A stretch of DNA of 64,000 bases from Roseburia sp. GTDB taxonomy: Bacteria; Bacillota; Clostridia; Lachnospirales; Lachnospiraceae. Shown piece after piece: positions 1 through 46,170 of this stretch. Positions within the stretch are counted from its first letter, which is position 1, and every line of letters starts with the position of its first letter. Position numbers and translations under genes: made by a program. The stretch covers positions 138,887 through 202,886 of the forward strand of contig JAPFDX010000034.1 in NCBI GenBank assembly GCA_026168605.1. Reading direction: 5' to 3'. The notes under the pieces were generated by a model, which was not told where the DNA came from, searched no databases, and was given only the letters and a program-made list of their open reading frames with translations.

Positions 1-688
1 GATGCAAAAAAGCGCCCGCCCGTTCGCTGACATAGGTGCGGTAATCCACCGCCGCGACCGTCCAGCGGCTCGTTGTCCTTCGCCTTAACTGCTCCATGTG
101 GATGATCTTGTTTGCCGTCCGCTCAAGAAGCGTCTCGTCGTGCGAGATAAAGAGCACCGGAACAGACACTCTGCTGATAAAACGCTCCAGCCACTCGAGC
201 GTCTCAATGTCGATGTCGTTGGACGGCTCATCCAGAAACAGAGCGTCCGGCTGCTCCATCAGAAGCCTTGCAAGCTGCAGCTTGACCTTCTCCCCACCGG
301 AAAGCTGTCCCATCCGCTGGTCCGCATAAAAAATGTCCGCGGCAAGCCCAAGCTGCCCCGCGATCGCCGCAAGCTCCCTCGGCGACTGCTCATAAAACAC
401 ATCGCTCTGTGCACAAAATTCGTAGACACTTTCCGCCTTCTGCTCCTCTGTCAGTTCCTGCGCCAGATAGCCGATGCGCGCATGATTTTTGATGATCTCT
501 CCGCTGTACTCCGCATAATCCTCCACCAGCCGCTCATCGTACAAAAGCTTTAACAGCGTAGACTTGCCGTTTCCCTCCTCGCCGATCAGCGCCGCCTTGT
601 CGCCGTCGTTTAACACCATCGAAAAATTTTCCAGTATCACCCGCATATCCTTGCGGTGTGTGATCGTCAGATTTTTTACCTGTATCAT
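1..688 (-). CDS. ABC-F family ATPase, C-terminus beyond window
   Basis: This gene is absent from the ORF track because it runs off the left edge. It starts at the ATG at 688, behind a GGAGGAG site (691-697), and about 229 codons are visible. They form a first nucleotide-binding domain with Walker A GEEGNGKST, an LSGGEKVKLQLARLL signature, Walker B ALFLDEPSNDIDIETLEWLE and a VLFISHDETLL switch. The signature joined to a DEPSN..D box, with no membrane segments, is the ABC-F layout. Members act on the ribosome as translation factors or antibiotic-protection proteins. The attenuation-like leader just upstream suggests drug-inducible expression, so a ribosome-protection role is inferred. The second NBD is out of view, so the subfamily cannot be assigned. 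Confidence 0.9.
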   Translation of the reverse strand, partial: MIQVKNLTITHRKDMRVILENFSMVLNDGDKAALIGEEGNGKSTLLKLLYDERLVEDYAEYSGEIIKNHARIGYLAQELTEEQKAESVYEFCAQSDVFYEQSPRELAAIAGQLGLAADIFYADQRMGQLSGGEKVKLQLARLLMEQPDALFLDEPSNDIDIETLEWLERFISRVSVPVLFISHDETLLERTANKIIHMEQLRRRTTSRWTVAAVDYRTYVSERAGAFLH

Positions 689-764
689 AAACTCCTCCGT
701 TTCCGGCAGTGTATGTATTTTGCGGAGCGTTTTTCTTTCCGGGGAACGAAGTTTCCTGGAAAGC

Positions 765-793
765 AAAAAAGGATGCAAGTCTCCTCACATCCT
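765..793 (-). terminator. Intrinsic terminator in ABC-F leader (candidate attenuator)
   Basis: On the minus strand AAAGGATG and CATCCTTT form a stem followed by a run of six T. It lies between the leader peptide (946-969) and the ABC-F start at 688, so it would stop transcription before the gene. A second hairpin with a TTCG loop at 884-897 (CGTCC/GGATG) has an arm of almost the same sequence. That arm could pair alternatively with the terminator arm, which would allow attenuation. Confidence 0.65.
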
Positions 794-945
794 TTCGCCT
801 CTTCCGGTGCAGTCCGAGCCTGCACATAAGTTTTCTATCAATGAAAAGATATTCGTTTCCTGCAAAACACATACCAAAAGAAACATCCCGAAGGACGCCG
901 CTTTACTTCCTGCCTCTCTCTTTTGATATGACTATTTACTTCGTT

Positions 946-969
946 TTATTTGCAGAAAAACCGATACAT
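946..969 (-). CDS. Leader peptide MYRFFCK upstream of ABC-F
   Basis: A seven-codon ORF (MYRFFCK then TAA) with an excellent ribosome site: GAAAGGAG lies five bases before the ATG. It sits about 50 nt downstream of a predicted transcription start, and a terminator hairpin follows about 150 nt later, ahead of the ABC-F gene. Short aromatic or hydrophobic leader peptides like this are known in inducible ABC-F and Erm/Msr genes, for example the msr(D) leader. There, a drug-stalled ribosome changes folding of the leader. Translation and function are inferred from layout only. Confidence 0.6.
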   Translation of the reverse strand: MYRFFCK

Positions 970-1025
970 CTTTTCTCCTTTCTCACCTATAATCCGACGC
1001 CTGCCACTAAGCCGCGTCTATCATT

Positions 1026-1054
1026 ATTCTACATGAGATCCCCTAAAAATACAA
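1026..1054 (-). promoter_or_regulatory. Sigma-A promoter for ABC-F leader transcript
   Basis: On the minus strand TTGTAT (1049-1054) and TAGAAT (1026-1031) are separated by exactly 17 bp. The -35 box overlaps the region just before the stop codon of the MFS gene. The predicted start near 1019 gives an untranslated leader of about 330 nt that contains the leader peptide and the terminator. Confidence 0.55.
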
Positions 1055-13374: not shown

Positions 13375-13684
13375 GGATGCCGGGGGCAGAAAGGGCTTTT
13401 CAAAAATGGAGTTGGCGAGTGGCATAAATGGTATTCTGATTTGTGAATGTGGAGAAGCTTAGAGCTTCTTAATGTTCTGTCAGTTTCCAGCAATTCGACG
13501 GCAGGGATGCTGGCGAAAGTCCGAACTGCGCCACGGATGGCGCATAGAGGACGGTTGCGTCCGTAAACAATACCGCTGCCAGAACATTTTAGAAGCTCTT
13601 AGATTCGGAACCTGAACAAAAAGAATACCATTTATGCCACTTGCCAGACGCAATCCGTAAAAGCCCCTTTTACCGTCGGCATCC
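13375..13684 (+). repeat. Long-inverted-repeat element, copy A (310 bp)
   Basis: The ends GGATGCC and GGCATCC begin two imperfect complementary arms of about 110 bp; for example GGCATAAATGGTATTC on the left matches GAATACCATTTATGCC on the right. A ~90-bp centre folds into its own hairpins: CGGCA-GGGA-TGCTG and TGCGCC-ACGGA-TGGCGCA inside GTCC/GGAC. It has no ORF of note. It shares sequence and length with copy B (45862-46170), and copy C (25161-25304) is an internally deleted relative. It ends 42 bp before the AraC gene and so probably lies in that gene's 5' leader. No clear target duplication was found. Confidence 0.85.
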
Positions 13685-45875: not shown

Positions 45876-46170
45876 AAGGGAGTTTTCAAAAATGGGATTG
45901 GCAAAATGTACAAATGGTATTCTGATTTGTGCATATGGAGAAACTTAGAAATTCTTAATGTTCTGCCAATTTCCAGCAATTCGACGGCAGGGATGCCGAC
46001 GAAAGCCCGAATTGCGCCACGGATGGCGCATCGAGGGCGGTTGTGTTCCTGCACATGAACAATACCCAGAGCATTTTAGAAATTCTTAGTTTCGGAATCC
46101 TGAACAAAAGGAATATCATTTGTGCAGTTCGCCAGTTGCAATTTATAAAACCCTTTTTGACACCTTGATC
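45862..46170 (+). repeat. Long-inverted-repeat element, copy B (309 bp)
   Basis: The ends GATCAGGGTGTCAAAAGGG and CCCTTTTTGACACCTTGATC are complementary, and the imperfect arms run about 110 bp on each side. The centre has the same hairpins as copy A with compensatory changes (GCCC/GGGC instead of GTCC/GGAC; CGGCA-GGGA-TGCCG). TTTATTA directly flanks both ends (45855-45861 and 46171-46177) and may be a target duplication. No ORF is carried, as in a MITE-like element. Confidence 0.88.

Follow-up and report, generated by a model that had tools for sequence, protein, structure and literature searches.

An ABC-F gene that starts at position 688 of the window (the whole stretch of 64,000 nucleotides of DNA analysed here) is preceded on the minus strand by an MFS gene (2359-1058) and by a leader of about 370 nt, which raises the question of what the leader does and to which signal it may respond. 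The initial annotation had proposed a drug-stalled leader peptide that controls a terminator in front of the ABC-F gene, and the promoter, Shine-Dalgarno site with MYRFFCK, TTCG hairpin, terminator with six T and ABC-F start on which this proposal was built were all found again in place. The features of the locus are as follows.

1026-1054, minus strand: promoter-like TTGTAT-17-TAGAAT (TTGTAT at 1054-1049, 17 nt, TAGAAT at 1031-1026)
689-1019, minus strand: untranslated leader of about 331 nt, assuming transcription from a predicted start near 1019
975-982, minus strand: Shine-Dalgarno GAAAGGAG of the uORF, a good site
946-969, minus strand: uORF MYRFFCK-stop, 7 codons, ATG at 969
949-975, minus strand: arm 1 of helix P1, from the uORF start to codon 7 (GAAAAGATGTATCGGTTTTTCTGCAAA)
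882-899, minus strand: TTCG hairpin, within P1, variable among relatives, with no role in the predicted switch
843-867, minus strand: arm 2 (TTTTGCAGGAAACGAATATCTTTTC), predicted partner of the uORF (repressed) or of the terminator 5' arm (induced)
807-825, minus strand: hairpin GTGCAG..CTGCAC, within the predicted antiterminator
786-796, minus strand: arm 3, the 5' arm of the terminator (GAAAGGATGTG), nearly identical to the uORF start GAAAAGATGTA
765-796, minus strand: intrinsic terminator with six U (hairpin 796-767, six T at 770-765)
723-773, minus strand: degenerate copy of a palindrome dispersed in this genome behind terminators
1-688, minus strand: 5' part of the ABC-F gene, ATG at 688; the gene runs beyond the window and is complete at L008:1525-3075

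The promoter of the window is weak, with 8 of 12 consensus positions matched, and falls under the 9/12 cut-off of the promoter scanner, which is why the latter misses it; better promoters are found 5' of the uORF in relatives, such as TTGACA..TATGGT in L009 and TTGACA..TAAGAT in L045. The fold of the leader has a z of -3.65, none of 100 dinucleotide shuffles being as stable, and three terminator-like sites were found vs 0.5 expected. A search of Rfam, which covered the leader and eight loci, returned no known element at gathering score, the sole item below threshold being a chance sRNA match (E 0.22).

The TTCG hairpin and the terminator had been put forward as mutually exclusive folds. Folding calculations do not bear this out: the arms of the two hairpins share 0.0 expected pairs in every state computed, and the TTCG hairpin was rejected as a competitor of the terminator, no pairing between them being seen in the ensemble. 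The actual alternation predicted is that of the uORF arm, arm 2 and the terminator 5' arm. Arm 1 and arm 2 form 23 expected pairs, and the end of arm 2 alternatively pairs with arm 3. In a ribosome-free fold of the RNA ending at arm 3, there are 23 pairs between arms 1 and 2 and none between arms 2 and 3. A ribosome footprint, assumed to cover 15 nt on the 5' side and 17 nt on the 3' side of the first base of the P-site codon, gives 9 pairs between arms 2 and 3 when placed at codon 1 or 3, and a footprint at codon 7 frees the uORF start again and brings them down to 0.3. A stall on codons 1-6 of the window leader is predicted to free arm 2 for the antiterminator and a stall on codon 7 is not, codon 6 still being partly effective in a codon-by-codon scan. 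The same scan was applied to ten orthologous leaders, in folds that are computed per sequence and lean towards the structure: stalls at codons 1-2 clearly raise the pairing of arm 3 with upstream sequence in nine of the ten, the exception being L048, where it barely rises (6.2 to 7.4). The gain diminishes from codon 3 onwards in L066 and from codon 5 onwards in L068, and a stall at the last codon is ineffective in L001 (the leader of the window), L044, L066 and L068. Full-length equilibrium folding of the window leader favours the terminator in all states, stall included, and antitermination must therefore be kinetic, as in classical attenuation.

We conclude that the leader is very probably a ribosome-mediated transcription attenuator. 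In the absence of drug, ribosomes would translate MYRFFCK and leave, the uORF would pair with arm 2 in P1, and arm 3 would stay free to form the terminator with arm 4, so that transcription would end before the ABC-F gene. A drug-stalled ribosome on the first codons would cover arm 1, leaving arm 2 to pair with the emerging arm 3 as an antiterminator, and the ABC-F protein would be made. Such an arrangement is of an established kind. Short-uORF attenuators of ABC-F genes are already known from vmlR of Bacillus subtilis and cplR of Clostridioides, in which a ribosome stalled on the uORF prevents the anti-antiterminator (PMC9226507, PMC10201436). The window leader has three marks of this kind, namely a short uORF preceded by a Shine-Dalgarno site, an intrinsic terminator between uORF and gene and, according to predicted folds and conservation, a uORF helix that excludes the antiterminator. 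It shares with the vmlR attenuator (uORF MIN, PMC9226507) the uORF in an anti-antiterminator hairpin, the intrinsic terminator, the stall-dependent antiterminator, here predicted, and the ABC-F gene downstream; it differs in sequence, and vmlR has a uORF of 3 codons and an extra SL-4 that hides the SD of the gene itself. The cplR attenuator (uORF MR[I/M]), which is induced by retapamulin and lincomycin (PMC10201436), likewise has its uORF in a 5' hairpin followed by a terminator, but its uORF has 3 codons, its terminator hairpin also hides the cplR SD, and it serves an ARE1 protein.

Is the leader conserved? The initial annotation had looked to relatives for this, and a lack of the peptide and terminator there would have spoken against it. 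A DNA search for near copies of the leader in 60 relatives found almost nothing besides the terminator-associated repeat, so that a protein search was needed. Among the ABC-F upstream regions reached in this way, ten distinct ones, that of the window included, keep the uORF, P1 and the terminator, and the ten sequences form one clade of the ABC-F tree with a support of 99. Their uORFs read MYRFFCK, MYRISCE, MCGISCK (twice), MFRISCK, MYRISCK (twice), MYTISC and MYRVTCEQ (twice). The cells of P1 are paired in 92.8% of cases vs at most 63% when the partners are slid by 1-3 columns, and compensatory changes occur within the uORF at positions 5, 6, 7, 13, 18, 19, 21 and 22. In the alignment of nine sequences, 162 of 500 shuffles had as many doubly changed pairs, which is not significant, and the evidence from covariation thus rests more on the enlarged set that includes the Lsa genes (below). 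Orthologous ABC-F genes without a recognisable leader were found directly behind another reading frame in some congeners (L052, L053 and L054), where the leader has been lost or was never gained.

This conservation also bears on the trivial explanation that the locus holds the ordinary terminator of the upstream MFS gene and a fortuitous ORF. The degenerate copy of a dispersed, terminator-associated palindrome at the leader would suit such a relic, but the uORF, P1 and the terminator are kept in ten leaders, nine of which do not have this MFS gene upstream, and every new match of the leader model described next precedes an ABC-F gene, which leaves this explanation with a negligible probability.

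A covariance model (R2) built from the leader of the clade of the window was run against 62 congeners and 299 family genomes. Beyond known copies it returned 14 new chromosomal leaders, and all 14 precede ABC-F genes of the Lsa family, whose products are about 48-68% identical to plasmid LsaE or LsaB (best match per gene). The uORFs of these leaders encode MIIISC, MYTVSCQ, MKKISCK, MENTSCK, MIIIAC, MFSISCK, MFNFSCR, MFKHSCK, MSSISC, MINISC (with a GTG start) and MYNTFSC. Moreover, R2 matches the leader of the plasmid gene lsa(E) in L148 at an E of 7.1e-8; direct reading of this Enterococcus plasmid sequence shows a 6-codon uORF, MYNFSC, in the same setting. The plasmid leader (L148:308-441) has the make-up of an attenuator of the same type, and a 191-nt stretch here is near-identical on 107 plasmid records, with no annotated feature among the rows listed.

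The consensus uORF is M-x-x-x-[S/T/A]-C. All 25 uORFs have the Cys, preceded by Ser in 21, Thr in two, Ala in one and Phe in one, which is that of the window. Ser/Thr/Ala-Cys is a consensus derived in the present analysis rather than an established definition; the window, with Phe-Cys-Lys, lacks it, and its nine orthologues have Ser-Cys or Thr-Cys. Judged by sequence, the clade of the window fits the lsa(E)-type leader, the copy of the window departing from it in one residue. The third bases of the Ser and Cys codons covary with arm 2 (TCC:G/TCT:A and TGC:G/TGT:A, the pairs being read from each sequence's own fold) and the amino acids stay unchanged, which points to joint selection on peptide and RNA.

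The leaders of lsa(E) and of the window agree in the match to the covariance model, the position of the uORF, the arm 1/arm 2 helix, in which GCAAGAAA pairs with the Ser-Cys codons, the terminator before an ABC-F gene and the predicted flip upon an early stall. They differ in the downstream gene, which belongs to the Lsa family for lsa(E), and in the terminator, whose 3' arm copies the uORF in lsa(E) (TTTCTTGC), whereas in the window the 5' arm copies the uORF start. In folding of the lsa(E) leader an early stall takes the terminator from 12 pairs to 0 and the antiterminator from 0 to 22, and a stall at Cys6 produces no flip. Even at equilibrium, the terminator of lsa(E), L208, L210, L216 and L218 is lost upon an early stall, and a Cys6 stall largely or wholly restores it in all of these except L218. 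The behaviour is not uniform, several other Lsa leaders (e.g. L203, L209, L211, L213 and L214) showing no flip at equilibrium. L203 and L205, two Lsa leaders of congeners, have a terminator (AAAAGATGTGAGG..CTTGCATCTTTTTT) that is nearer to that of the window than those of other Lsa leaders are, which suggests that leaders were exchanged between both ABC-F families within the genus.

We consider it likely that the explanation holds as a whole, that is, that the window leader is an attenuator of the lsa(E) type induced by early ribosome stalling. The core of the initial annotation, a drug-stalled peptide that controls the terminator, is strongly supported by conservation, compensatory changes and the sharing of the leader with lsa(E) and other Lsa genes; the pair of folds it named is not. 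An lsa(E)-type leader makes the drugs that Lsa proteins act against the likeliest inducers: pleuromutilins, lincosamides and streptogramin A. Two further points argue for this class, the effectiveness of early codons in the window and in lsa(E), and the action of these drugs just after initiation (PMC10201436); we hold an inducer from this group to be reasonably probable.

Two other classes of drug could be sensed by the uORF. Drug-dependent arrest near the end or stop codon, with an Msr-type protein downstream, would make it a macrolide sensor like MsrDL. MYRFFCK indeed resembles MYLIFM in length and in its M-Y-x-hydrophobic-F pattern (PMC10314930), both leaders place a short M-Y peptide and a terminator before an ABC-F gene, and the ABC-F protein of the window, P0001, has some similarity to the Msr profile. 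MsrDL works by macrolide-dependent termination arrest at its stop codon, a late position that is predicted to be ineffective in the window: the codon 7 stall is inert there and in L044, L066 and L068, as is the Cys6 stall in lsa(E). F5 is absent from most relatives, the leader type is common to Lsa and not msr genes, and P0001 lies far from Msr in the tree. We therefore regard a macrolide sensor as quite unlikely, and neither the leader peptide MYLIFM nor an Msr-type gene, the marks of MsrD/MsrDL, was found at the locus. A mef(A)-msr(D)-like operon was also considered and rejected, the MFS gene being directly upstream in this genome only and scoring 49.7 of 675 for Mef(A).

Stalling by chloramphenicol or linezolid favours a penultimate Ala, and also Ser or Thr. 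That these drugs stall ribosomes in a context-specific manner is established (PMC8987054), and the Ser, Thr or Ala that precedes the invariant Cys in 21, 2 and 1 of 25 uORFs, respectively, would suit a phenicol or oxazolidinone sensor in which the drug stalls the ribosome at a given penultimate residue. Indeed, the conserved Ser-Cys is not required by a purely position-based stall model, and such a sensor thus remains a rival. Against it, the uORF of the window has Phe before Cys, and for lsa(E) and the majority of Lsa leaders a Cys6 stall is predicted to come too late, although it partly works in the window. Lsa proteins are not known to confer phenicol resistance, and we judge this rival to be very unlikely.

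P0001 is an ABC-F protein of 516 residues that lies under every curated resistance cut-off (Lsa, Vga, Msr, OptrA, PoxtA, Sal and CplR): its best score is 283 bits, vs 380 needed, with the general model of resistance ABC-Fs, and the specific models score far lower. The nearest solved sequences are VmlR2 and VgaL. Its predicted structure (pLDDT 89.6) matches the resistance proteins PoxtA, VmlR2, Sal(B), VmlR and VgaL and, among other ABC-Fs, EttA and Uup, and the fold alone thus cannot separate resistance from housekeeping proteins. In the tree, its clade is deep and stands apart from Lsa, Msr/Vga, OptrA, PoxtA and EttA. Of 250 genomes sampled from the family, 36 (~14%), all of different genera, have an orthologue with 53-72% identity, as do 21 of 62 congeners. 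P0001 carries DEPSNDID (residues about 153-160) and DEPTRNFSP (about 462-470) behind its Walker B glutamates in place of the usual DEPTNHLD type, and DEPTRNFSP is invariant in 35 aligned orthologues.

The depth of this uncharacterised clade, its DEPTRNFSP/DEPSNDID motifs and the scores below resistance cut-offs would agree with a housekeeping-like translation factor under a general translation-stress sensor, induced by any slow early elongation or block of initiation. Such a gene would not be expected in as few as about 14% of sampled family genera and 21 of 62 congeners, nor to have a leader type common to Lsa genes, and we find this alternative unlikely. From the leader and the patchy distribution of P0001 we infer a role in ribosome protection.

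More distant orthologues of the ABC-F gene, and other Lsa genes, have a different conserved leader with a four-codon uORF, M-x-x-R-stop. In 118 upstream windows, 68 uORFs of two to four codons ending in Arg or Lys were found, whereas the rate in other parts of these loci predicts 1.6. In the P1 helix of this leader 96.3% of cells are paired, vs no more than 51% with slid partners, and the 25 doubly changed cells were equalled in none of 500 shuffles. The Arg codon is AGA, CGA, AGG or CGG; the first base of this codon does not pair in P1 and is A in 36 and C in 8 and never G or T, and on the tree the label CGA requires six changes. In 47 of the 48 leaders with a usable terminator, a codon 4 stall is predicted to move arm 3 to upstream pairing by more than 2 pairs, with a mean gain of 9.1 pairs (3.2 with arm 3 shuffled, 33 of 48 exceeding 2), and a stall at codon 1 has little effect in many of them. 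A model of this leader, R1, matches 52 of the 299 genomes at an E of up to 0.01, and all 30 loci returned lead into ABC-F genes of the family of the window or of an Lsa-like family; six Lsa-like proteins behind such leaders score 487-551 bits with the Lsa model. R1 gave no match in the genome of the window. Its matches are almost entirely limited to the family; one strong match lies in another family of the class, again before an orthologue of the ABC-F gene of the window. Weak matches outside the family (L193-L195, E over 1e-4) adjoin unrelated genes and were taken as chance. Two leader types thus each serve two ABC-F families.

The open-access papers searched, in which lsa(E) is not searchable by exact name, do not appear to describe the two leader families, the lsa(E) uORF or the sharing of leaders between ABC-F families. 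The conserved amino acids of both modules are left unaccounted for by base pairing. It is a possibility, which we advance tentatively and hold to be on the doubtful side, that M-x-x-x-Ser-Cys and M-x-x-Arg-stop, each exchanged between two ABC-F families, are new nascent-peptide arrest motifs and that the proteins they serve include a new ribosome-protection clade. The drugs concerned (pleuromutilins, lincosamides and streptogramin A) have been regarded as stalling ribosomes largely irrespective of sequence context and would, if this is true, have arrest motifs of their own. Whether stalling by pleuromutilins and lincosamides depends on the uORF sequence is an open question (PMC10201436), for which the more than 60 leaders with conserved codons provide a comparative set. 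Furthermore, these leaders are common to an uncharacterised ABC-F clade that is widespread in the gut and to the Lsa family, with the mobile lsa(E) among its members, and their sharing yields a testable prediction of the antibiotics that induce these genes in gut commensals.

Two minor observations concern the rest of the genome. The palindrome TTTACTTTATAGGAAACTTCGTTCCCTATAAAGTAAAA, usually then followed by CCTCCGGGGGAT..., is dispersed in this genome directly 3' of intrinsic terminators. Four perfect and two near copies were found, in addition to degenerate ones such as that carried by the leader terminator of the window (copies at window 723-773 and in G000 C5, C10, C13, C29, C31, C32 and C42; L002-L007), and similar palindromes stand behind some terminators in L018, L048 and L060. 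The window also contains two strong TwoAYGGAY RNA elements (Rfam RF01731) on the plus strand, at 13447-13613 and 45934-46100.
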